From: a virus
DNA length: 20,304 bases
IMG/VR virus record: IMGVR_UViG_3300010370_000311
Span: 1 to 20,304 of that record
Direction: 5' to 3' (one strand)
Part shown: positions 1,200 through 18,875 of the stretch, piece after piece
How the letters are laid out: each line of letters starts with the position of its first letter
Position numbering within the stretch: the first letter of the stretch is position 1
The notes under the pieces: model-generated
What the model was told of the DNA's origin: nothing
Seen by the model: the letters and a program-made list of their open reading frames with translations, nothing else
Database searches by the model: none
Program-made: the position numbers and the translations under genes

Positions 1200-1879
1200 C
1201 TGAGAGACACAAAGCAGGCCGACCCCGCCGTTTGAAATGTCGGATCGACCGTTATAGTTGTTGATCCGGTCGTTGAGAACGTCGCGTCGCCGCCCGTGTG
1301 TGGCAGAAGGCCCGCTTCCGTATCGATGTCGTAGCGTTCGGTCGCGTTGGTGGGGGAGTGCGTTGGCAGGCCCCCGGAATAGTAAGTGTAAGCAACATAA
1401 ATTCCGACACCGCCTGCAGTGTGTGACAAGCTGCCGGACGTGTACGGGTCAACTGTCTGGCTCGTGGCCGTGGCAACAGGCGTTGATGATTGCAGATCGT
1501 AAACCGCCCAGACGCCGATTCCTGACCGCGCGCATGTTGCCGAGTACGTGACAACGATGTCTGCTGTGGTGCCTGTGTCTACCTGTACGATGTAGAGCGC
1601 CGTGCGCTGGTTCGCACCGCCGCCAGATCCCTCATCCGTGCAGAGCTGCGTCGCCGCGTTGCCGCCAACGGTTACGCTCGTTACCGACACCGTGCCGCCC
1701 TTCGATCCGGCCACGCCGATGACAATACGCCGCCCCGTCGCCGCCGTGCCGATTGATTGGCTCGAAAAGGTGTATGTCGATGCGTCAACCGACGACTGCG
1801 CGTTTGTGCAGAAGGACACTGACGCGGCCACGCTGCTTGATACAGCCGACGCGATCAAAGATGCGAATGACGGCCCCAT
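1196..1879 (-). CDS. Beta-rich virion surface protein, fibre-associated (unknown)
   Basis: A 227-residue protein, rich in Ser, Thr, Gly and Val with almost no Lys, which is typical of beta-sandwich virion proteins. After a hydrophobic N-terminal stretch (GPSFASLIASAVSSSVAASV), a beta region begins with RRIVIGVAGSKGG and then VTSVTVGGNAATQ, a strand pattern found in many uncharacterised phage tail-region proteins. No enzyme motif is visible. The ATG at 1879 shares one base with the fibre stop codon (TAATG), which is why I prefer it over an in-frame start 30 nt upstream inside the fibre gene. Its place directly after the fibre suggests a fibre partner, second receptor-binding protein or assembly factor, but this is inference. 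The alanine-rich N-terminus might be a membrane or signal segment, which I cannot exclude. Confidence 0.75.
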   Translation of the reverse strand: MGPSFASLIASAVSSSVAASVSFCTNAQSSVDASTYTFSSQSIGTAATGRRIVIGVAGSKGGTVSVTSVTVGGNAATQLCTDEGSGGGANQRTALYIVQVDTGTTADIVVTYSATCARSGIGVWAVYDLQSSTPVATATSQTVDPYTSGSLSHTAGGVGIYVAYTYYSGGLPTHSPTNATERYDIDTEAGLLPHTGGDATFSTTGSTTITVDPTFQTAGSACFVSLR

Positions 1880-4800
1880 TAGGTCAACCCCGCGCCTGAG
1901 ATGATCCACGAGGTCGATGTTACTTTAATCGCAGTCGCGACCCCATTAGCGGCGAGCGTTCGGCTGCCAGTTGTGCCAGCGCCAGCGAGCGTTAAAGTGT
2001 CACTCGTTATTGCAATGGTCACTGTGTTGATAGCGTTGACGAATGTGATGCACGTTCCGATTGGGTACGCAACAGACGAGTTGGCGGGGATCGTGAATGT
2101 TCTTGCGTTGTTGTCCGAACTTGGATGGTAAATGTGCTTTTGGGCATCAGATAGGACCAACGTATAAGCTGCCGATTGTGAATTCTGCGGGATTTGCGAA
2201 TAGAGCGGAACGCCTTCGACGTTGATGACGCCGGCAGCGTTTCGACTAATGGTCGTGTCGCTCGCATGGCCAAGCTCAATTGAGCCCGTCGTTGTTTTGG
2301 CGCTTGTCCCATTTGACAAATCGCTAGCAATCGTCAACGCGCCAGCAGGCGTCATCGAGAAGCCGGTCACGATTGACGAAAAGTCCGCATTCGCAGTGCT
2401 AACGCCATTGAATATAAAATCGAGCGTAACGCCATTATACTGAATATACATTCCCTTTGAAGCAACGCCGCTATTTTTCAAAGTGTTCGCTGTTGACGAA
2501 TGCTCGGCCAAAAAGGCCAAAAATGGAACGCCACCGCCATCAAGAGTCCCCAGCGTGCCGTAATAATTTGTGTTGCTGTGTGACCACTTGAAGCCACTGC
2601 CCGCGTGCACGGCGTCAAGGCCAGCAATATTTGACGCGCCCGAATGGGAAAATGAGTACCCCGACGTCGCGCCAGCAAAAGCAAGGGCGTTGCTTGAGTG
2701 CGTGATTGTCACGTCACCGTTGGCAAAATTGACAACGGCTCCCGATGCAAGAAACAGGTCAGACCACGACGCCGCGCCCGTGCCTAACGAATCGGCGTCG
2801 TTGGCCGTCGGGTCAGGGTACGAGGTTAGAGCCGCAGAATACGCTTGGACGTTAGTGCCAATGGCAAGACCTAGATTGCTTCGCGACGTTGCGGCGCTTG
2901 CGACATCCGAAAGATTGTTAGCTGCGATCAAATCGCCGACGCCCGCGCCATCAGCCCCCTTGTTGCCAGTGCGTTCGAACACAACCGCCATAACGTCGTT
3001 TGCCGATGGCGCACCGGCTGCCGCTGTGACCGTAATCGCAACAGCGTAGTAGGTCGAATTGTCGGTGATGCCCGTGACCTCGGCCTCGATATATTCCGTG
3101 CGATCCGAGACTGTAAATATACGGAGATGCCCATAATGCGTGGTATTGGTGCTGTCGTCCCACGTCGCAATGACCGGACCAAGAGATTCAGCGTTTCGGC
3201 CTGTTTTGCTGATGTTTATAGCCGTTGCGCTTGATAGCGTGACATTGTTGGCAAGGACCTTCCCAGACCCAGGGTCGCCGCTCGTGGATGCCGACCACGC
3301 ATAGTCAAGACCTGTATTTGGACCCGTTGCGCCGGTCGCCCCGGTTGCGCCGGTCGCTCCGGTTGCGCCTGCTGCCCCGTTCGTCCCCGCATCGCCTTTA
3401 TCTCCCTTTTCGATGACGAGGGCGGCGCAGTTGTCTCCGCTTGATATTGTTCCGCTCGTTGCCAGGTACGAAACGGGAAAAGTCCAATAGCTTCCTTGAT
3501 CTGTCCCGCTCCCGGTGATGTTGAATGAATGAAAATTTTGTGTGGCTCCCTCCTTGCTGATCTTAACGCGCGCACGGATCGTGCTTGTGCTGTCATCCCA
3601 CGTCGCAATGACCGCTGCCATTGATCCGCCAGCCGAGTCCGTTTCGGAAAAAGCAAGCTCTGTGATGCTGGCAATTGTCGCGTTATTCCCTCGGACCTTC
3701 CCAGACCCAGGGTCGCCGCTCGTGGCCGTGTTCCATTGATACGGGTATGCGGCGTCCAGCCCATCACTGCCTTGCGGACCATCCTCGCCTTGCGGTCCCT
3801 GCAGCGCCGTGAGGCTTTTGACGCGGACGTAAGCATAGGTCTCGAGGTTGCTGGCGATTGACATGGCCGTGCCGAGCGCGTTTCCGCTCGAGTTGGTCTG
3901 CAGGTAGTATTCAAGGATCAGGTTGTCAGCGCTGGCCAGCGTGAACGTCGCGACAACCTGGCTGCCGTGCGTGCCGTCCGCGCCAGAGCCAGAGACGCCG
4001 TTGATGCCGTAGAAGATCGTCCCGGCTGTTTCGAGGCGCAGGCGAAGCTGGCCACCGTCCGCGCGGCTGAACACGCCGTCCGCGTCAACGTCATATGTCC
4101 CGGCAGGTAGCGTGATCTTGTTGGACGCGATCGACGCGCCTGTGATGCTGTTGGCGGCTTCCGTCTGCAGCGTGTGCGTCGTCCAAGCGCCCGTGGTCGT
4201 CGAGCCTGAGGCCGTGCCGTCCGCCCTCTGGTCGAGCCAGATGCCCATCTTGAGCGTGGACGTTGACGGGGTGGACATGCCCGTCTGATCAGCCCAGGCA
4301 GTGCCGATGAATGCCGTGTAGAGGTTTTCGTCTTCGACGTAGGCCAACCAGCCTTCGGCAGGGACGTAGCGGAACCAAGAGCCGTTGCCGTCGCTCTCAA
4401 CAACATCGTGCTGAGCGTAGGATAGCGTGGACCACACGCCCGTTGGCGTGCCGTTGATGATGTAGCGGGCACCACCTGTTGGCGAGCTCGGCGGCGCAGT
4501 CAGGCGGTCCGTGACCTTGAAGAACGCAAGACCATCCTGCATCAGCGCCGGGGTCGAGCCGTCAACGTACCAGTTGCCGCCATCGGCCACGAACTGCACA
4601 GACTGGCCTTGGCCTTTCAGCGAAAACGCTGTGACCGAAGCGCCAGAGATGCCGATCGTCTGGCCCGCCGTGGTGCGAATGGTGACGACGTTGGCCGTGC
4701 CGGCGTGGCGGATGGTGATGCGAAAGCCATCCTCGGCCGTGACGGCAGAGAGCAGCGTGATTGCAAAGCTGCCGCTGGTCGGATTGGCGTTGATGACCTT

Positions 4801-5193
4801 GCCCTGATCCGCAGCGACGACGGTATAGGTTGAAGTCTTGGAACTGACAGGGGTTTCAGGGAGGGCGATCTCATCCGTGACAGGGATCGCCACAGCGCCG
4901 GGAACGTTGTCATGCGTGACGAGCGTAATCCCGTTGGCGTCCTTCACAATCATCTTGAATGCGCTGGTGCCGGTGAAAACCAGCGTTCGCGCGTTGCCGG
5001 ATGTTTTCGGATAGCCGGACGAGTCGGTTGATACGATGGTCCCGAGCGCCGTTGACAGGTCTTTGTCCGCGTAGACGGTCTTCGGCGTCGAGGTTCCGGC
5101 CTCGTAGAATTCCACCGTACCGCCAGACACGGGGTTTCCGTTGGCGTCGGTGATGCGGATCATGGGCGAGAAAATTGCAACAGAATCGGTCAT
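1879..5193 (-). CDS. Collagen-containing tail fibre protein
   Basis: A 1104-residue modular fibre, probably trimeric, likely to bind the host surface. Order of parts: an N-terminal Ig-like/adaptor domain (about 1-100, with ITDANGNPVSGGTVEFYEAG); a beta segment (about 115-220); a DUF2793-like segment (about 225-303, with SPTGGARYIINGTPTGVW and GWLAYVEDENLY); a predicted jelly-roll (about 315-462); a collagen-like stretch (466-478); repeat module 1; collagen-like Gly-X-Y with five Gly-Ala-Thr triplets (about 595-626); repeat module 2; a third Gly-X-Y stretch (from 743); the phage tail repeat NNLSDVASAATSRSNLGL; then a beta C-terminus ending ISGAGLT. No S74 chaperone is seen at the C-terminus. 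CAGGGA lies just before the ATG. It follows the ejection-slot genes, as the tailspike does in P22. The C-terminal third is visibly richer in A and T than the rest. Confidence 0.9.
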   Translation of the reverse strand: MTDSVAIFSPMIRITDANGNPVSGGTVEFYEAGTSTPKTVYADKDLSTALGTIVSTDSSGYPKTSGNARTLVFTGTSAFKMIVKDANGITLVTHDNVPGAVAIPVTDEIALPETPVSSKTSTYTVVAADQGKVINANPTSGSFAITLLSAVTAEDGFRITIRHAGTANVVTIRTTAGQTIGISGASVTAFSLKGQGQSVQFVADGGNWYVDGSTPALMQDGLAFFKVTDRLTAPPSSPTGGARYIINGTPTGVWSTLSYAQHDVVESDGNGSWFRYVPAEGWLAYVEDENLYTAFIGTAWADQTGMSTPSTSTLKMGIWLDQRADGTASGSTTTGAWTTHTLQTEAANSITGASIASNKITLPAGTYDVDADGVFSRADGGQLRLRLETAGTIFYGINGVSGSGADGTHGSQVVATFTLASADNLILEYYLQTNSSGNALGTAMSIASNLETYAYVRVKSLTALQGPQGEDGPQGSDGLDAAYPYQWNTATSGDPGSGKVRGNNATIASITELAFSETDSAGGSMAAVIATWDDSTSTIRARVKISKEGATQNFHSFNITGSGTDQGSYWTFPVSYLATSGTISSGDNCAALVIEKGDKGDAGTNGAAGATGATGATGATGATGPNTGLDYAWSASTSGDPGSGKVLANNVTLSSATAINISKTGRNAESLGPVIATWDDSTNTTHYGHLRIFTVSDRTEYIEAEVTGITDNSTYYAVAITVTAAAGAPSANDVMAVVFERTGNKGADGAGVGDLIAANNLSDVASAATSRSNLGLAIGTNVQAYSAALTSYPDPTANDADSLGTGAASWSDLFLASGAVVNFANGDVTITHSSNALAFAGATSGYSFSHSGASNIAGLDAVHAGSGFKWSHSNTNYYGTLGTLDGGGVPFLAFLAEHSSTANTLKNSGVASKGMYIQYNGVTLDFIFNGVSTANADFSSIVTGFSMTPAGALTIASDLSNGTSAKTTTGSIELGHASDTTISRNAAGVINVEGVPLYSQIPQNSQSAAYTLVLSDAQKHIYHPSSDNNARTFTIPANSSVAYPIGTCITFVNAINTVTIAITSDTLTLAGAGTTGSRTLAANGVATAIKVTSTSWIISGAGLT
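3255..3287 (-). repeat. 33-nt direct repeat, copy in fibre module 2
   Basis: This block is identical over 33 nt to the one at 3693-3725. Both lie in the same reading frame and encode SGDPGSGKV at the start of a repeated fibre module. The offset is exactly 438 nt (146 codons). A second near-identical block (gtgctgtc-r-tcccacgtcgcaatgaccg) recurs at 3150-3177 and 3588-3615 with the same offset. Confidence 0.95.
3319..3411 (-). repeat. Short tandem repeats encoding a collagen-like stretch
   Basis: Nine-base units of the form ggttgcgcc/ggtcgcccc (plus strand) repeat here with small changes. They encode Gly-X-Y triplets, including KGDKGDAGTNGAAG followed by five Gly-Ala-Thr triplets. The tract joins the two repeated fibre modules and probably forms a trimeric collagen-like stalk. 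Such tracts can change length by slippage without breaking the frame, because one unit is three codons. Confidence 0.85.
3693..3725 (-). repeat. 33-nt direct repeat, copy in fibre module 1
   Basis: Partner of the identical block at 3255-3287. The perfect match stands out because the protein between the two copies has diverged considerably, which suggests either strong constraint on this short loop or recent gene conversion. Confidence 0.95.
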
Positions 5194-9921: not shown

Positions 9922-10668
9922 TCAAGCCTCCAAGATAGGCGGTCCATCGCTCGTGTAGTTTGACGAGTCGATGTTATTGAGCGTGTGGTCGTGGGTTGAC
10001 CCGGCGTCGTTGCCGAGGTTGTTCGCGTCTTCGAAGTCGAAGAAAAAGCCGTTGTTGCCGTAGGTCGGCGCGGGGGATGGCTTGGCTTTCCAGATGCCGC
10101 CATCCAGAGCCCCGAAATCACTGACACTCGCGGTCGTCGTGTCCATCCAGTGGTAGCGCGCGATCTTGCCGCCGAAGTAGTCGCCGCTCACCTGATCGCG
10201 CCCGATCTGATGCGCCAGGGTCAGGCCGATCGTTGATGTGCCATCGTAAGCGGTCGTTACCGTCTTGAGCGTTTCGGTGCCGTTGACCCAGAACCTCACG
10301 CGCTCGCCGCTGGCCGCGCCGAAGTTGATGACCACAAACACATGAAACCACGTATTGGCGACCAGCGCGGCCGTCGTCGAGGTCACGAGGCACTTTGTCG
10401 AGAGCGCTGGCGCGGCCCGCTCGTGATAAACAAGCTGATTGCTTGAGTTGATATAGAGCCGCCCGTCAGACGTTGACTGCGCCGCGCTCATGATAGGATC
10501 GTTGCTTGTCGCCGTCGTGCGGTACACCCACACAGACCATGCCCGCGTGTGGGCCGGGAAGCTGTTCGCAACGGGCGTTCGGTTCAGATACTCATCCGTG
10601 CCGTTCAGGATCAGCGCCGGCGCTTGCCTGCCGCTGGCGAAGTGTCCAGTCGGATAAATCAACGGCAT
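9922..10668 (-). CDS. LamG/concanavalin A-like lectin-fold virion protein
   Basis: A 248-residue beta-sandwich protein. The LamG-like pattern runs through most of the chain: ALILNGTDEYLNRTP near residues 18-32, AWSVWVYR (about 43-50), RLYINSSNQLVYH (about 70-82), NTWFHVFVVINF (about 104-115), RVRFWVNGTE (about 122-131), and GGKIARYHW (about 165-173). The end NGFFFDFEDANNLGND is a familiar close to this kind of phage protein. It is probably a structural carbohydrate-binding or head/tail decoration protein; no glycosidase residues can be named. Its ATG shares one base with the upstream stop (TGATG). It stands between the tail hub/needle slot and the ejection genes, so it is likely in the virion. 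Confidence 0.8.
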   Translation of the reverse strand: MPLIYPTGHFASGRQAPALILNGTDEYLNRTPVANSFPAHTRAWSVWVYRTTATSNDPIMSAAQSTSDGRLYINSSNQLVYHERAAPALSTKCLVTSTTAALVANTWFHVFVVINFGAASGERVRFWVNGTETLKTVTTAYDGTSTIGLTLAHQIGRDQVSGDYFGGKIARYHWMDTTTASVSDFGALDGGIWKAKPSPAPTYGNNGFFFDFEDANNLGNDAGSTHDHTLNNIDSSNYTSDGPPILEA

Positions 10669-11225
10669 CAGGCAAACGCCTTCACTGCAACGCCGTACAT
10701 GGATGACCCGTCAGAAATGAACGTCAGCAGGTCAATTGAGCTTGCCGCCGTGGTAAGCGTAGGAGCCGTTCCGCTCGGCCATTTGTACGCCGCGCCATAG
10801 CCCAGCGTCCGCGATCCAGTGCCGTCTTGTCTGACGATCAGCTGATAGGTGCCGCCCGCCTTCATGTTCGTTGGATTTGCCAACGTGCGGTTGCCGCCGA
10901 GCGTCACCGTTGCAACCTGTCCCGTGTCGAGGTTCCACGCGATATTGGCCGCATCCGTCAACGTCGCCATGGCAAAGTATTGCTGGCCAGACCACGCGTT
11001 GACGCCATTGAGCAGCGGCACGGTTTCGCCAGATGTGCCGATGTTCTCGGTTGCTGCGGTCCCGAACGTCGGGAACCCGCCAACGTCGCCAGACAACGCC
11101 GTCAACGTGCTATCGATGCTGTTGAGCAGCTTCGTGGCGTCGAAGAACCATTTGTACCAGGGCTCGCGGAACCGGCCTTGCTCAAGCGTCCCGGATTCAT
11201 GGGCGGGCGGTAGTGTCAGGCTCAT
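10668..11225 (-). CDS. Tail knob/needle-slot protein with fibre-like C-terminal domain
   Basis: A 185-residue protein. Residues 1-45 contain a conserved-looking attachment segment (REPWYKWFFDATKLLNSIDS) followed by a short helix. From about residue 95 a fibre-type beta domain appears: ATVTLGGNRTLANPTNMKAG, then YQLIVRQDGTGSRTLGYG and WPSGTAPTLTTAASSIDLL. This C-terminal domain is common in phage fibre and head-spike proteins and probably trimerises. The gene follows the gp10-like hub with an ATGA overlap, where P22 encodes its tail needle gp26, so a short needle or knob is plausible. It is much shorter in coiled coil than gp26, so the assignment is positional and a head or tail decoration protein is possible. 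Confidence 0.65.
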   Translation of the reverse strand: MSLTLPPAHESGTLEQGRFREPWYKWFFDATKLLNSIDSTLTALSGDVGGFPTFGTAATENIGTSGETVPLLNGVNAWSGQQYFAMATLTDAANIAWNLDTGQVATVTLGGNRTLANPTNMKAGGTYQLIVRQDGTGSRTLGYGAAYKWPSGTAPTLTTAASSIDLLTFISDGSSMYGVAVKAFA

Positions 11226-12667
11226 GCGGCGATCTTCGCCCCATCAGCGGCGATGGATAGGAACGTCTTCACGACCTTGGCCGAGGCCGAGAACTTGTAG
11301 CTGATGCCACGGTGATCCGACGTGCCAAGCGCATGCCAGGCTAGCCGCTTGTTGCTGTTGCCCTGCCGTCCGAGCGCGCGGCTCAATTCGGTGCCCCACG
11401 TCTCGCCGTCGCGGCTCATGGCCATTGTGACCATGGGATCAAGATCAGCCGGCGTGGTCGTGTTGAGGCCAACGCCCGTAACGCAATCGAGATAAAGCGC
11501 ATTCGTCTCGATTTGATCGGGGAACGCATGCACGGGCGGCGTCTGCACCGTCATGACAAGTTGCGTTCCCGCTTCGTCATTGGCTGATGGATCAACAAAG
11601 TAAAGATTGGGCGAACTGCGATGCCCACCGACAACGCGGCCACCGAGTACCATCGTCGTCCCGATGTTCCAGTGCCCTTGGCCGTAACTCTGCCGCTCAT
11701 GCCACAGGCTCGTTGCCGTGTCATAGACCCACGTCGTCACGCCGGGGATGGTCCAAGCCATGTAGGCGTGACCGGCATCCGTCCAGCTCATGCCGACAAT
11801 GGTTGACGGGTCGGCGCAGTCGCGCATGTCCCGGTCAACGTCGGGACGGCTGATTGGACGCGCCGTATAGCCGTCGAGAATAGAAATCGCAGCATACGCC
11901 CCGTCTTTGTCGGTCGTCGCCCAGGCGATGGCGTCCGTGACCAGATCAGGCCGGATGATCGGGGCGGACACCACCGAAGCGGCGGACCAGCAGCCGACGC
12001 GGCTCGATTGTGAACGCTGGAAGGGGAAACCATCATTGCTGCCGGTGTAGTCCCAGACCTCAAACGACCGCTGGCCAAAAGCAATAACGCTGGTTCCACG
12101 TGAAACCGCCCGCAGAAGCCCGTCAGGATCAGACTGCGCTGCAGTGATAGCGAGACCATCCCACCCGGTCGCGTCGTTGATCTCGCTGGCCCTGAGATAG
12201 CCGTCAGGCGATGACGTGACGAAATGGTTAGCCACGGAGCAAACCGAGTTTGGCGAGCCAAAGTCAGTATCAGTGATGTCAACGACCGCGCCGCCCTGGA
12301 TGAATTTTCCCAGGCCATCGCAAACGATCATGGTTTGCGCGCCAGCCGCGCGAGAGTTGCGCGCCATGGTGACGAGACCGTCCGAAGGCATGCCGCCGAG
12401 AACTGTGCTCGTGCCGCCAGCTTCAAACTGATGCACGACGCGACCACACACGGCATAGCCCACGCCATCGACCTCGATCATGGCGCGAACACCGCCAGAG
12501 CCCGACAGCGTGCCGAGTGCGGTCAGGCCCGCCACGGCATGGGTCGAGACCTTAACCCGCTGCTCATCACCCACGACCTCGGCACGGCAATTGATCAGCC
12601 GCGCGATGCCTTCAAGCGGCGATTTGCCTTTGTTGCTTTGCGTGCCGAGAGCAATCGGAAATCTCAT
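11222..12667 (-). CDS. P22 gp10-like tail hub / packaged-DNA stabilisation protein
   Basis: A 481-residue protein, close to the length of P22 gp10 (about 470). Gp10 forms a hexameric ring under the gp4 adaptor that retains packaged DNA and carries the needle and spikes. The N-terminus (MRFPIALGTQSN, then SPLEGIARLINCRAEVVG) and the repeated beta blades (for example YAVCGRVVHQFE, TDAIAWATTDKDGAYAAI, SYGQGHWNIGTTMVLGGRVV) match this family's beta-propeller-like build. Also recognisable is the stretch SPDGYLRASEINDATGWDGL. It directly follows the gp4-like gene with an ATGA overlap, the same order as in P22. Confidence in the family is good; the exact stoichiometry here is taken from P22. Confidence 0.83.
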   Translation of the reverse strand: MRFPIALGTQSNKGKSPLEGIARLINCRAEVVGDEQRVKVSTHAVAGLTALGTLSGSGGVRAMIEVDGVGYAVCGRVVHQFEAGGTSTVLGGMPSDGLVTMARNSRAAGAQTMIVCDGLGKFIQGGAVVDITDTDFGSPNSVCSVANHFVTSSPDGYLRASEINDATGWDGLAITAAQSDPDGLLRAVSRGTSVIAFGQRSFEVWDYTGSNDGFPFQRSQSSRVGCWSAASVVSAPIIRPDLVTDAIAWATTDKDGAYAAISILDGYTARPISRPDVDRDMRDCADPSTIVGMSWTDAGHAYMAWTIPGVTTWVYDTATSLWHERQSYGQGHWNIGTTMVLGGRVVGGHRSSPNLYFVDPSANDEAGTQLVMTVQTPPVHAFPDQIETNALYLDCVTGVGLNTTTPADLDPMVTMAMSRDGETWGTELSRALGRQGNSNKRLAWHALGTSDHRGISYKFSASAKVVKTFLSIAADGAKIAA

Positions 12668-13287
12668 TCCGTGTCCTCGTATCGGCGCGTGGTTGTTCTG
12701 GTTAGAGCGTTGTCAAACCGGGCTGGCGGCGGGATGATGAAATCGGCCTGCAGCGTTGTCCAAGCGTTGGACGCGGCGCGGGCCAGCAGCGGGCTAACCG
12801 GCTTGCCGAAGTCTTCGGCAACAGCCATCGCCAGCATATCGATGACGCCGGCCTCGTGCTTGCGAGGATACTGCCCTTTCAGCCATTCGACGCCGTCGAA
12901 AATAGCCACGTCGTTGACGCTCCACGTCGTCACGTCGTCAAGCGTCGTCGTTCCGGCCACGCTCACCTTGTAGAAATGGCCTTGCGTCCCGGTGGCGCTG
13001 GTCAGCGTTGGCGTGTTCGTTGACGCATTCCATGTGCCCTGGCTGACCAGGAGGTCAACAGTCTCGCTGTCGATGCCAGCCGGCGGGATTACAAAGAAAA
13101 ACTCATCATCAAGGGTCATGTCGGCGTGCTTCACGTCCACGCCGGACGCCTGCCACGCGTGCATCATGTCGTTGAGGGCACCAAGAGTATAGTCCGCGTA
13201 TTCAGCCGCAGCAGCTTCGCCCGTGCCGATCGACACGACACGAATCCGCCGCAGCGCTGATGTAACGATTTCACGAACCGTGCTCAT
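12664..13287 (-). CDS. P22 gp4-like head-tail adaptor with inserted beta domain
   Basis: A 207-residue protein that would join portal and tail hub. The N-terminal helices (TVREIVTSALRRIRVVSIGT, then YTLGALNDMMHAWQASGVDV) and the C-terminal helical part (KHEAGVIDMLAMAVAEDFGK, then ARAASNAWTTLQADF) fit the gp4/tail-accessory family found after coat genes in P22-like phages. Between them, residues about 83-138 (GTWNASTNTPTLTSATGTQG to VAIFDGVEWLKG) form a small beta unit that I know from phage fibre and decoration proteins. Simpler relatives go straight from the 'DDEF' strand to the C-terminal helices, so this looks like an insertion. No gp4-type lysozyme residues can be named. GGGGG lies a few bases upstream of the ATG; the stop overlaps the next start. 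Confidence 0.8.
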   Translation of the reverse strand: MSTVREIVTSALRRIRVVSIGTGEAAAAEYADYTLGALNDMMHAWQASGVDVKHADMTLDDEFFFVIPPAGIDSETVDLLVSQGTWNASTNTPTLTSATGTQGHFYKVSVAGTTTLDDVTTWSVNDVAIFDGVEWLKGQYPRKHEAGVIDMLAMAVAEDFGKPVSPLLARAASNAWTTLQADFIIPPPARFDNALTRTTTRRYEDTE

Positions 13288-13303: not shown

Positions 13304-14542
13304 TTAGGTGCCGCTCAAGCGCGTTGCGAGACGCGGATCGATGATCTTGCGGCCATAGAGCACGTCGAGACGCCATTTGCTGATGTCGTTCGTGCCGTCA
13401 TAGATCGGGATCACGCGGACCGAGATGCCCTTGTAGGACTGACGCGATCCGTTGTAAGCGGCCTGCGGCATTTCCATCGGCACGAAGGCCACGCCCATGG
13501 TATTCTTGTGGAACACGAGATTTTGACGGTAGGCCGTCGATGCCGAGCCGACAACGGTAATTGCGGCGTTGTCGGCAGGCGCAGCGTTGACCGTCTGATG
13601 CGGGCCTGACGTGATGATCGGCGGCGAGATCGTTGCCGTGAGGTTACCTGTTCCATCCGACGACACGTCAGCCGTGACAACGAACTGCTGAAGAACGCCC
13701 GTCGTCACCTTGGTCTTGGGGTTTACCATCTGCACGTTGGCAATTGTGAAGATGTCGCCCGCCTTGAGGCGGTTGGCCGCCGCCGCCGTCCAGCCGTCAG
13801 TGATGAGCGATTGCGTCCACGTATTCTTGGCGGTGTCATAGGTCACGTTCTGCGAAGCACCGTTGACGAGCGGAGTGCCGCCGAGCGGGCCAACAGTGTG
13901 GGTCGGCACGACCTGCGACATGAGCGTATCGATGCCGCCCACCATGCCCATCTCGCCACGGCGGAAGGCATCACTGGCCACCTGGTTGATGTAGAGCGCG
14001 GTCTGTGACCCAACGAGGCCCCAATAGTCGGTCGGCGCGAACGCTGCCGCACGGTCGGCTTGCGGGACCGCCATGATATCAAGGCGCTCGGGGGCCTTCG
14101 CGAAGTCGGCGAACGAATCCACGGTGTTGCCCGGCGTTCCCACCCAATTGTAGATGCCGCGATACATTTGCGTCAGAACGTCGTTGGTGATGTCGTTGAC
14201 CAGGCTCGACATGGCCGGCTTGATCACGCGCTCAGACAGGTCGTCGATTTTCAGCGTGAGTTCTGTCGACGTGAACTCAAAGTCGATGCCTTTCTGTTGG
14301 TCGACCGTCAGTGTCGTCTTGCCTTCGATCACGTCTTGCGTCGACAGCGTCGCGCCAGATCGAACGGTGAAGTCGGCCGGACGACGGATCGAGATCGTGT
14401 CACCGATCTTGTAGCCGTTGACAGAGTTGCTAAACTCGCTTTCGTGGGCGCGGTGCATGCGCTTCAGAATGCCGAGTTCGTTTTCGAGGATGATCAGCGC
14501 CTCTTTGGCGACGATATCTGCGGTCAGTGACGTGTTAGCCAT
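13304..14542 (-). CDS. Major capsid protein, P22 gp5-like (HK97 fold)
   Basis: A 412-residue coat protein, slightly shorter than P22 gp5 (430). The N-terminus (ANTSLTADIVAKEALIILEN, then FSNSVNGYKIGDTISIRRPA) and the block TLSTQDVIEGKTTLTVDQQK followed by IDFEFTSTELTLKIDDLSER are typical of the P22 coat family, as is VIKPAMSSLVNDITNDVLTQ. The latter half is beta-rich with Gly/Ala/Asn/Val repeats, consistent with the inserted domain of this family, and the end (ISKWRLDVLYGRKIIDPRLA) is also family-typical. It should assemble the icosahedral shell around the scaffold encoded just upstream. AGGAAAG lies about 11 nt before the ATG. The 20-nt spacing from the scaffold and the strong local site fit high expression. 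Confidence 0.93.
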   Translation of the reverse strand: MANTSLTADIVAKEALIILENELGILKRMHRAHESEFSNSVNGYKIGDTISIRRPADFTVRSGATLSTQDVIEGKTTLTVDQQKGIDFEFTSTELTLKIDDLSERVIKPAMSSLVNDITNDVLTQMYRGIYNWVGTPGNTVDSFADFAKAPERLDIMAVPQADRAAAFAPTDYWGLVGSQTALYINQVASDAFRRGEMGMVGGIDTLMSQVVPTHTVGPLGGTPLVNGASQNVTYDTAKNTWTQSLITDGWTAAAANRLKAGDIFTIANVQMVNPKTKVTTGVLQQFVVTADVSSDGTGNLTATISPPIITSGPHQTVNAAPADNAAITVVGSASTAYRQNLVFHKNTMGVAFVPMEMPQAAYNGSRQSYKGISVRVIPIYDGTNDISKWRLDVLYGRKIIDPRLATRLSGT

Positions 14543-15432: not shown

Positions 15433-17487
15433 TTATTGAGTTACTTGCGTCTGCCGAAGCTCGTCAGCGCCGCGCATAATCTCCTGGCGGGTTTTCTCGA
15501 CGTTAAGCTCAGCCATGTCCGCATCAGCCATGGCCTTGCGCACCGCCGCCTCTTTGACGACGATGTCAGACGGGTCAACAATCTCAGGCTCAACCAATTG
15601 GGGCTGCACGCCGCCTTGCTCAAGCGCTGCCGCCTCAAGTTGGGTCTTCATCGCGTCTGCCATGGTTTTTGCCGCTTGAGCCTTCTTAAGCTCGAGGTCT
15701 GCGACCATGATGGGATCTGGCTCAGGCGGTGGTTGCGGTTGATCTGGGTCGCGCTGAAGCTCTGGCGGCACCATGTTGCGCAACCGCTTCGCGATCTCGT
15801 CCGATTCCGGCCAGTCCATAGCCTTGGCCAGCAGATCGCCAATAACCGGAGCGGCCTGAGGAACGGCGCGCATGAACTCAATCATGCTGTTTGCCGCCTC
15901 AATGCGCTTGGTCGCATAGCTGCGGCCGACCGTCACGCGGATATCAAACGATGCGGCCGACAGATCGTTGATGACCATCGGCTCGCCGTTCGCGGTCATG
16001 ACGACCTGATTGATGCGGGCAAACTTCGTTTCATTTTCCTTTTGGCCAAGTAAGCGGACGACGCGCTCATTGTCGTAAATTTTCGGGATGAGATCGACCA
16101 AGATGCGCCCGCAATGCTCAAGTGAGCGCTGCAGGTTGTCCGCAAAATGGTAGTTCGCAACGTCGCTTTCCTGCTGGCGTCGGCTGATGGCAATTCCGGC
16201 CGTCTCGTTGCTCTTGTCGCCGAGCGCCGCGTCATAGATGCCCGTCGTGCCCTTCATGTCATCCGAGGCGATTTGTGCCTCTTGCACGAGAGCGGCAGGG
16301 ATTGCAGGCGGCGCAATGCGCTCTGGTCTGCTGCCTGGTGCTTCAGGGTCCGGCTGGTACAGCAGATAGGGCTTGTTATCGAGGTTGGCCGCATCCCACA
16401 TGCTTTTAAACGGCCCCAACATGTTGGGCGTTGCAAGGTAAGGGGCTTTCGGCGTCAAAGCGATGCTTTCCGCCGTGGCGGTTCTATAAAAGTTATAGAG
16501 CTGCTGCGGGTCGCGGGCGAAGCGAATGGCTCCGTATCGGTAGACCTTGTTTTCAAGCGGGAATTCTCCGCCGACAACCGGAACAAGCGGTATAAACTTG
16601 CCAGCCCACTCATACGGGCCTTCAAGGATCTCTGATCCGCTGATGATAAACTGTTCAACCTTGTGCGTCTCGCATGGCCGCGTGCGCACAATGGGCAAAA
16701 AGCCTAGCTCAGCCTCGCCCTTGCCTGTGATGTCAACCGACCTGCCGTCCTCGAGTAGGGCCAGCAGCTTGGTCACGCGCGTCTTGCGCCAATACTCCGC
16801 AATGCGAATTGTGTCAGTCGTTGACCAGTAGAACGGTCGATCATAGCCGCTTGTCGGCGTCGTAATCTCGACAGCCTTGGCTTTCGGATACCGCCGCTTA
16901 AACGTGTCCTTCGGCAGCATTTCCGTGACAGCAATCCACATCGCATCGGATCGATCCGGCATGACCGAGCCGGGGTCACAGTACACCGCAAGCGGGTTCT
17001 TCACGGCCTTAATGCGGATCTCTTGATCGAACGCCATGTCATCTGCGTAGTCAGACGACACGCGCCACCAGCCAATGCCGCAGCTGGCTTGATGCTCGGC
17101 CGCCGTCGAATACACATGCCGCGCGCTCGACCGGTACTGAATTTGACGGATCAATCCGTCATAGATTTCGGCCACAGCCGGATCGGCGTCGTCATCCTCT
17201 GGCACCACTTTAATCGCGATGTCGGCCTGTCGGATGTCGTTGGTGATCTGGCGCACGAACTGCGGCAAGCGGTTGATGGTCAGCATGGGCCGCTTGGCCG
17301 CTTCGCGCTCGCGCCGCACGCTTTCGGGCCATTGATCGCCAGCCAGGAACGTCAAATCCCGCGAGGCTTCTTCGCGGTTGTCGCGGTCGTGTTCCCAGCT
17401 CGTCTGGATATTCTCGACAACTTCTTTGATCAGCGCCTCAGCATCGCCTTGGCTGAGCTTTGCGCCTTTCTTCTGGTGCTGGTTCAT
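15433..17487 (-). CDS. Portal protein, P22 gp1-like
   Basis: A 684-residue portal, near the P22 gp1 length (725). It would form the dodecameric ring at one capsid vertex through which DNA enters and leaves. The N-terminal part is strongly family-like: helices with SWEHDRDNREEASRDLTFLA, GDQWPESVRREREAAKRPML, then TINRLPQFVRQITNDIRQAD and the residues SCGIGWWRV, followed by DPLAVYCDPGS-type text (here NPLAVYCDPGS). The C-terminal 150 residues are helical, Gln/Ala/Pro-rich and probably form the barrel or a flexible tail (QPQPPPEPDP is a Pro-rich break). I chose the ATG at 17487 because it overlaps the terminase stop as ATGA; an in-frame GTG at 17499 would add four residues. Confidence 0.92.
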   Translation of the reverse strand: MNQHQKKGAKLSQGDAEALIKEVVENIQTSWEHDRDNREEASRDLTFLAGDQWPESVRREREAAKRPMLTINRLPQFVRQITNDIRQADIAIKVVPEDDDADPAVAEIYDGLIRQIQYRSSARHVYSTAAEHQASCGIGWWRVSSDYADDMAFDQEIRIKAVKNPLAVYCDPGSVMPDRSDAMWIAVTEMLPKDTFKRRYPKAKAVEITTPTSGYDRPFYWSTTDTIRIAEYWRKTRVTKLLALLEDGRSVDITGKGEAELGFLPIVRTRPCETHKVEQFIISGSEILEGPYEWAGKFIPLVPVVGGEFPLENKVYRYGAIRFARDPQQLYNFYRTATAESIALTPKAPYLATPNMLGPFKSMWDAANLDNKPYLLYQPDPEAPGSRPERIAPPAIPAALVQEAQIASDDMKGTTGIYDAALGDKSNETAGIAISRRQQESDVANYHFADNLQRSLEHCGRILVDLIPKIYDNERVVRLLGQKENETKFARINQVVMTANGEPMVINDLSAASFDIRVTVGRSYATKRIEAANSMIEFMRAVPQAAPVIGDLLAKAMDWPESDEIAKRLRNMVPPELQRDPDQPQPPPEPDPIMVADLELKKAQAAKTMADAMKTQLEAAALEQGGVQPQLVEPEIVDPSDIVVKEAAVRKAMADADMAELNVEKTRQEIMRGADELRQTQVTQ

Positions 17488-18875
17488 GCGCCGAGCCACG
17501 CACCCTTGCCGGCAGGCGCACCGCTCGTGAACGCTTGAGACCAGTCAACATGCTGCTTGACCACAAGAGACGGGAACAGCTGCGACAGAGCCCACACGAG
17601 AGCGTCAACGCGGTCGCCGGTCGTCTCGCCGGCCACGCCGAGCGGGGTGAATAGCACCTGTTGATCCTCCAATTCCGCGAACGTCCCGACGTGGCTGATA
17701 CGGCCCTGCTCGTACAGCGCCGCGATCGGTTCCGCGCGCGTGACCTTGCCTCTTGAGGCGTGAACCTCGACGACTGGGATTGTGTCCCTCACTGACTTGA
17801 TGGCCATTTTGACCATGTCGCCGCCCTGGTTTGTTTCGACAACGATCGCGTCGGCTGAGTACATGTCGAATGCCGCGACCGCCCGGCGCGCCCAACCATT
17901 AGGAGACAGTGAGCACGTCTGATCATCGAGCACATAGCCGCGACCATCGACACCGAGGCCAGCAACCACAATGCCCGTCTCTGCTGTGCCTTCGCTGATT
18001 GCCGTCTCCTGGCTTTTTCCTGCAGGGTCGATAGCCACGACGACGCGTTGCATGTCTGGAAGCTTGTCGCCGCGCTTCTTGCGTGTCTTGTCGAGCATCT
18101 CGCGCGTCCATAGCGCGCCTGGCACGTCGTCAAGGACTTCGGCGTCCAGCTCTTGGCGGCCAAGACGCGTGCCCTCGTACTTAGCTTTGATGTTCTCCAT
18201 GAACGACGCGGCGAGGTTGGACGCGTTTTCGTATGTTGAGCCCCGCGTCGTAACTGTCCTGCTGTCGCTCATGATCTTTTTGAGCAGCACAATCGGACGC
18301 GGGGTGGTGGTGATAAGCTGGCGGGGATCGTCGCCGAGGCGAAGCCCAAACTGCAGCATGTCCCAGGTTTCCTGAGCGTAGCGCCATTTGGCTAGCTCGT
18401 CGCACCATCCGAGGTCATGTTGAGGGCCGCGCAGCTGGTCGGGCTCAGTCGCGTTAAATAGCGTGGCAACCGCACCATTGGGCCAAGTCAAGCGCCTCAT
18501 GGAGGGCTGATAGGTGGGGCGGAACGCTTTCGGATGCACGCCAAGAATGCCGCTGTCACCCTCAACCATAACGTCACGGCCGTCTGCCGCTGTCTCAGCC
18601 ACAAGCGCCACGCGGCCTGCTTTGCCTCGTGCAAGAGGTGTCGGCCCGCAGACCATGGACCTAACCCACTCAGACCCGCATCGCGTCTTGCCGAAGCCTC
18701 GGCCAGCAAGAATGACCCATGTCAGCCATTTGCCATCGGGCGGCAATTGATTGGGGCGAGCCCAGAACGGCCAGTGCGTCAGCAGTTCCGCCTTGGTCTC
18801 ATCACTGAGACGGGTCAGATGGGCTGTCCTCTGTGCTTCGGGCAGCGATGCCAACAATTGCGCGGGTGAAAGCAT
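17484..18875 (-). CDS. terL: Terminase large subunit (DNA packaging ATPase/nuclease)
   Basis: The motor protein that cuts concatemeric phage DNA and pumps it into the head. With the ATG at 18875 it has 463 residues. Walker A is AGRGFGKT (57-64); Walker B ends in the acidic pair D159-E160 (LGWCDELAKW); the coupling motif is TTTPRP (189-194). The RNase H-like nuclease domain shows Asp283 (VVVAIDPAGKS), Glu347 (AIVVETNQGGD) and Asp424 (DRVDALVWAL). This arrangement fits the Terminase_6/6C type common in phages and gene-transfer agents of Alphaproteobacteria. A TTG at 18884 would add three residues but the ATG is preferred; the N-terminal LASLPEAQRTAHLTRLSDET is typical of the type. The gene overlaps the small subunit by about 74 nt and the portal by four. 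Confidence 0.96.
   Translation of the reverse strand: MLSPAQLLASLPEAQRTAHLTRLSDETKAELLTHWPFWARPNQLPPDGKWLTWVILAGRGFGKTRCGSEWVRSMVCGPTPLARGKAGRVALVAETAADGRDVMVEGDSGILGVHPKAFRPTYQPSMRRLTWPNGAVATLFNATEPDQLRGPQHDLGWCDELAKWRYAQETWDMLQFGLRLGDDPRQLITTTPRPIVLLKKIMSDSRTVTTRGSTYENASNLAASFMENIKAKYEGTRLGRQELDAEVLDDVPGALWTREMLDKTRKKRGDKLPDMQRVVVAIDPAGKSQETAISEGTAETGIVVAGLGVDGRGYVLDDQTCSLSPNGWARRAVAAFDMYSADAIVVETNQGGDMVKMAIKSVRDTIPVVEVHASRGKVTRAEPIAALYEQGRISHVGTFAELEDQQVLFTPLGVAGETTGDRVDALVWALSQLFPSLVVKQHVDWSQAFTSGAPAGKGAWLGA

Follow-up and report, generated by a model that had tools for sequence, protein, structure and literature searches.

What is a beta unit of tail-fibre type doing inside the neck adaptor of a short-tailed phage with P22-type head genes? 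The question is raised by the window, that is, the whole stretch of DNA analysed here, a virus record of 20,304 bases whose P22-type head genes lie on the minus strand. The genes relevant to it are the following.

Minus strand: terminase (PF03237/PF17289)
15433..17499, minus strand: P22-type portal protein (PF16510, 5.3e-182)
Minus strand: scaffold-like protein (PF09306 at 8e-5, slightly below the family cut-off)
13304..14542, minus strand: P22-type coat protein (PF11651, 2.2e-50)
12664..13287, minus strand: P22 gp4-type head-tail adaptor with fibre unit, 207 residues (phrog_637, AF2, gp4 fold)
11222..12667, minus strand: head closure protein Hc3 (P22 gp10-like), downstream of the adaptor (phrog_578, 3e-70)
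1879..5193, minus strand: tail fibre/spike of 1104 residues (DUF2793; Pan3/Pam1 head-binding matches)
4834-5193, minus strand: N-terminal 120 residues of this fibre, its Pan3/Pam1-like head-binding part

Residues 9-109 of the 1104-residue fibre match the Pan3 tail spike (9vyg_m, 2.3e-5) and the Pam1 tailspike head-binding domain (7eeq_A, 1.7e-4). Two further observations concern this neighbourhood: a 248-residue protein with a ConA-like lectin (Laminin_G_3) domain (1.3e-11) is encoded among the tail genes (9922-10668, minus strand), and coat residues 219-312 match the distal tail protein family phrog_1302 (7.9e-6), perhaps as an inserted domain of the coat.

The sequence-only reading had described a gp4-like adaptor interrupted by a fibre-type domain, and the core of the protein bears out the adaptor. 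Indeed, residues 1-58 match phrog_637 'head-tail adaptor Ad3' (8.5e-15, whole-protein PHROG search), the gene lies between those of the P22-type coat and Hc3, and the predicted core keeps the fold of P22 gp4 (9pgg_Ax; Z 15.6, rmsd 2.0 A, 108 residues aligned), with fits also to the adaptor of Pan3 (Z 16.6), Sf6 gp7 (Z 14.4) and the adaptor of Pam1 (Z 13.7), and a weaker one to T7 (Z 8.6-9.0). The closest solved adaptors (Pan3, 9vyg; Pam1, 7eep) hold 12 chains per entry. Each of the fits to P22 gp4, Sf6 gp7, Pan3 and Pam1 covers only 101-110 of the 207 residues, and, with the full adaptor model as query, the VIA-align rows against solved structures fall on the core, not on the unit. As the protein stays below the cut-off of Pfam P22_Tail-4 (PF11650; 13.6 bits versus 21), the gp4-type label is drawn from the PHROG match, the fold and the gene order rather than from membership of that family. 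The same Pfam search gave no match of the window adaptor to SU10_adaptor (PF24175) at E up to 1.

The adaptor can be divided into the following parts, the fibre unit lying within a real open reading frame of 207 residues.

13096..13287, minus strand: N-terminal core, residues 1-64 (helices 4-14 and 28-47, then the TLDDEF strand)
12868..13095, minus strand: complete insertion, residues about 65-140, missing in the short-loop adaptors L020, L091, L101 and L139
12874..13041, minus strand: fibre-type beta unit, residues 83-138 (GTWNASTNTP ... FDGVEWLKG; PHROG tail families)
12667..12867, minus strand: C-terminal core, residues 141-207 (helices 143-160 and 166-183)

The borders are given by adaptors of the short class, in which the second helix leads through the strand to the third helix with no insert. 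L139 reads GVDVGHIDQTLDDDF, then EHILGAKALL, and L020 reads TMTLTDTFPLADHHIAGVKALLA, L091 and L101 being alike, whereas the window adaptor reads GVDVKHADMTLDDEF, then about 76 residues, then KHEAGVIDMLA. From this alignment, in which all four short-loop adaptors leave a clean gap, the insertion starts directly after the DDEF strand, as had been proposed, and extends over residues 65-140 or so. The limits first proposed for it, residues 83-138, hold for the fibre unit but are too narrow for the inserted stretch, which also comprises a lead-in of residues 65-82. This lead-in was compared with the stretch that precedes fibre units; the likeness was weak and was dropped.

Searched apart from the rest of the protein (12871-13044), the unit matches phrog_29238 (5.1e-11), phrog_13892 'minor tail protein' (7.9e-9) and phrog_31460 'tail protein' (4.6e-8), and residues 74-137 match tail-protein families in the whole-adaptor PHROG search as well. 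Two unrelated domains are thus matched within one open reading frame, which points to a fibre graft in an adaptor. In a set of 50,697 phage records, 65 match the adaptor at E up to 1e-3; among the matches listed, all 60 do so via the unit and none spans 80% of the query, the genes being named minor tail protein, tail fiber, chaperone of endosialidase or hypothetical protein; no isolate with the architecture of the window adaptor appeared among them. Relatives of the unit are encoded in at least 584 of the 600 stretches examined. Pfam (at E up to 1) and NCBIfam hold no family for it, the carbohydrate-binding family CBM5/12 (PF02839) gave no match to it in Pfam at E up to 1, and a search for solved structures related by sequence returned a single match, an unrelated reductase (E 0.48). 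With no Pfam model and no sequence-related solved structure found here, a structure of the unit would be informative for hundreds of phage sequences.

The AlphaFold2 model of the adaptor has a mean pLDDT of 90.5 and a pTM of 0.79. It places between helices 28-47 and 143-160 a compact unit of six strands (residues 81 to 139), the independent beta fold that had been expected, at pLDDT 94-97, a confidence raised by the alignment used, in which 31 of 59 window and locus sequences were fibre fragments. Predicted structure against predicted structure, the unit superposes on BFVD fibre models at 0.4 A over 57-58 columns, for instance on A0A6J5SKK0 (0.4 A, 58 columns, 66% identity). Judged by these comparisons, the insertion is real and the claim survives: the segment aligns with fibres and not with gp4, and only the flanks fit gp4.

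In viral contigs, queries made with the adaptor alone or with Hc3 found 1 and 2 loci, respectively, and coat-gene queries were therefore used. The resulting survey comprises the window and 286 loci, among which overlapping copies of the same contig are frequent. It holds 139 distinct adaptors with both core halves, a requirement that removed most adaptors truncated at the end of a contig. The survey is confined to phages related by the coat gene and cannot serve to estimate how common these forms are among phages; its counts are rows, not independent events, and the module profiles were built from its own members. Within these limits, a long loop is found in 88 of the 139 adaptors and a short loop without any module in 15. 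The fibre unit fills the loop in eight, a CBM5/12-like module in nine (four of which score weakly with the C-terminal-module profile) and a third beta module in two, and the loop of 86-90 residues in Pan3 and Pam1 (2/139) matches no module profile. Finally, in 15 adaptors the loop is short and the C-terminus bears a CBM5/12-like module, and a loop module and a C-terminal module never occur together (0/34 adaptors with an assigned module).

The CBM5/12-like assignment is graded, since the PF02839 cut-off of 26.2 is passed by three of the six loops tested (L004, 32.4; L007, 30.0; L120, 28.4) and the others lie below it (L018, 26.0; L231, 24.1; L250, 22.8). The model of the L007 loop fits the CBM region of a Vibrio chitin deacetylase (Z 8.7, 1.2 A, 48 residues), and the usual pair of surface aromatic residues looks replaced in these loops. 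The C-terminal module of L116 scores above the Pfam cut-off for CBM_5_12 and also matches the head-decoration family phrog_20658 (4.6e-5).

Several other arrangements were met in the survey. The third loop module, containing VSGTGI and without a Pfam match, occurs in L011 (8922-9530) and L126 (7123-7749). Three adaptor-type proteins stand in tandem in one phage (L044, 6415-8432; L054, 6645-8794), and a 367-residue adaptor (L064, 6580-7683) has a loop of 270 residues between its core halves. The gap between coat and adaptor in some relatives holds glycosyltransferase-like and methyltransferase-like reading frames, named by eye (L012, 6298-7523; L014, 6317-7599; L023, 2651-4209; L024, 6405-7648).

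In the coat tree (71 rows), the window falls into a clade of 13 rows (98 SH-aLRT) which, window included, unites six CBM-loop, four fibre-unit and three C-terminal-module phages; its nearest rows are L003, with a fibre unit, and L004, with a CBM loop and a coat 79% identical. Fibre-unit adaptors need four changes on this tree, two of them forced by starred branches. In the tree of adaptor cores, the CBM5/12-loop adaptors form one clade (98/85) and the fibre-unit adaptors stand apart (three changes), a single clade not being rejected (AU p 0.296). In the tree of the modules themselves, all six adaptor units included group together in a clade (99 SH-aLRT), apart from 63 fibre units, on few columns; as these 63 were the top matches of the query, the clade could partly be a sampling effect. 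The simplest reading would be a single capture, followed by spread of the module or of the whole gene.

Two positions set the adaptor units apart from the fibre copies, to 63 of which the window unit is up to 67% identical (median 62%). Position 23 of the unit is occupied by K or R in 7/7 adaptor units versus 7/65 fibre units, and position 43 by W in 0/7 versus 52/65, a pattern that would fit a unit no longer packing in a fibre trimer. In all 21 pairs drawn from seven of the eight fibre-unit adaptors, the unit is also better conserved than the core; the eighth (L228), cut and without the motif, was left out. Identities are 75% for the unit versus 41% for the core between the window and L009, and 53% versus 50% between the window and L006. 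Between the window and L003, dN/dS is 0.105 for the unit and 0.084 and 0.072 for the core halves. The idea that the adaptor is especially hypervariable was weighed and dropped: with L003 left out, Hc3 diverges to the same degree, its identity being 31-41%, at a coat identity of 67-79%, in the 11 relatives out of 12 that have an Hc3 match.

The site itself is known, a point that the sequence-only reading had missed: many adaptors already hold there a beta domain, the 'fibre dock'. According to PMC6702177 and PMC9509320, T7 gp11 and the SU10 and KP32 adaptors possess a long tail fibre dock not present in P22 and Sf6; in T7 gp11 and SU10 this dock is a beta domain. By the same sources and PMC10575957, the adaptors of T7, SU10 and P-SCSP1u are dodecamers whose fibre-dock domain touches fibres outside the tail. 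By profile and fold, the fibre unit of the window occupies this fibre-dock site, which members of the SU10_adaptor type fill with a beta domain. This equivalence is drawn from shared core profiles and folds rather than from a residue-level comparison with T7.

We conclude that a gp4-type adaptor has acquired a beta unit of tail fibres in the loop that joins its second and third core helices. By analogy with T7 and SU10 adaptors and their fibre dock, the unit likely points outward at the head-tail junction, and the solved dodecamers suggest that the ring would bear 12 copies of it. There, the unit may make many weak contacts with glycans of the host surface or of biofilms; these would hold the virion near the cell, the tail fibres doing the specific binding. 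Such an accessory surface-binding role is our first choice, ahead of docking and bracing, because the unit interchanges with a carbohydrate-binding family and the C-terminal alternative matches a head-decoration family; our confidence in it is just short of even. It has to face the facts that the unit matches no Pfam family, CBM5/12 included, that the aromatic pair looks replaced even in the CBM5/12-like loops, that docking is already known at this site, and that the Pan3/Pam1-type head-binding domain of the window's fibre must be held somewhere on the tail. Docking or bracing is to be regarded as a close rival to this plausible role.

Docking is the natural alternative use, since the site of the module equals the fibre dock. 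The module would then be a replacement dock which, together with Hc3, holds the phage's own 1104-residue tailspike. In addition to the T7 and SU10 precedent, the three long-loop adaptors tested, in which the same cores flank the loop, all score above the SU10_adaptor cut-off in Pfam, and the N-terminus of the window's fibre is of the type found in Pan3 and Pam1, whose adaptors have a loop of similar length. However, P22 and Sf6 hold their tailspikes without any loop domain, 15 sister adaptors have an empty loop and a C-terminal module, which is hard to reconcile with a dock of fixed geometry, and the modules that interchange are of fibre and decoration type, not of dock type. We regard a replacement dock as the less likely reading, though a serious possibility.

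That the module braces the neck appears improbable. An accessory domain on a coat-contacting adaptor has a precedent in R4C (PMC10276861), the C-terminal module of the sister phages sits where P22 gp4 runs up the portal (PMC6702177), and the unit is under purifying selection. Nevertheless, the coat remains 67-79% identical though the adaptor modules differ completely, so that no co-variation with the capsid is seen. A selectively neutral passenger, i.e. a common fibre unit landed in a tolerant loop, would suit the great abundance of the unit, but is disfavoured and very improbable in view of the single clade of adaptor units, its presence in eight distinct adaptors with cores down to 31% identical and its low dN/dS. 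Last, the notion that the segment is ordinary adaptor core, to which the many adaptors with a filled loop might lend colour, is refuted by its match to fibres and deserves practically no credence.

Neck rings are usually regarded as passive joints. If the surface-binding reading is correct, the neck may be an overlooked place for the display of phage binding modules. More broadly, the neck adaptor of this clade could be a swappable display socket: fibre or decoration modules would occupy the fibre-dock loop, or the C-terminus if the loop is empty, so that some 12 glycan-binding modules ring the head-tail junction as a second adsorption layer independent of the fibres. This generalization is tentative, and we doubt it more than we trust it. 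If the outer loop of the adaptor is indeed a recurrent landing site, predictions of host range from fibres and spikes only would miss a displayed layer, and the T7-like fibre dock would be a single instance of what this loop generally tolerates.

The fibre dock and R4C already provide examples of adaptors with accessory beta domains, whereas for a captured fibre unit that swaps with CBM5/12-like modules at the loop no precedent was found in the literature searched. That search, mostly outside subscription papers, yielded no earlier report of a neck adaptor bearing a fibre unit or a CBM, and no paper containing the strings GTWNAS, GTWNAN or GTWDAS. In R4C, as described in PMC10276861, a dodecameric adaptor bears an accessory beta domain, as does that of the window, but this Ig-like attachment domain is N-terminal, has another fold and belongs to a siphophage; the authors of that study consider a neck domain, different from the present unit, unlikely to act in adsorption, being near the head, which counts against a surface-binding role. 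P22 gp4 and Sf6 gp7 have the helical core, the fold and the coat-adaptor-Hc3 order in common with the window adaptor, but are without a loop domain. T7 gp11 and SU10 gp11 carry, as it does, a beta domain in the loop of the same helix bundle, although that domain differs from the window unit. The Pan3 and Pam1 adaptors, among the closest solved cores, have loops of similar length which, unlike that of the window, match none of the fibre-unit, CBM or third-module profiles. Elsewhere, the GTWNASTNTP unit resides in fibre or minor tail proteins, and its adaptor copies form a clade of their own.
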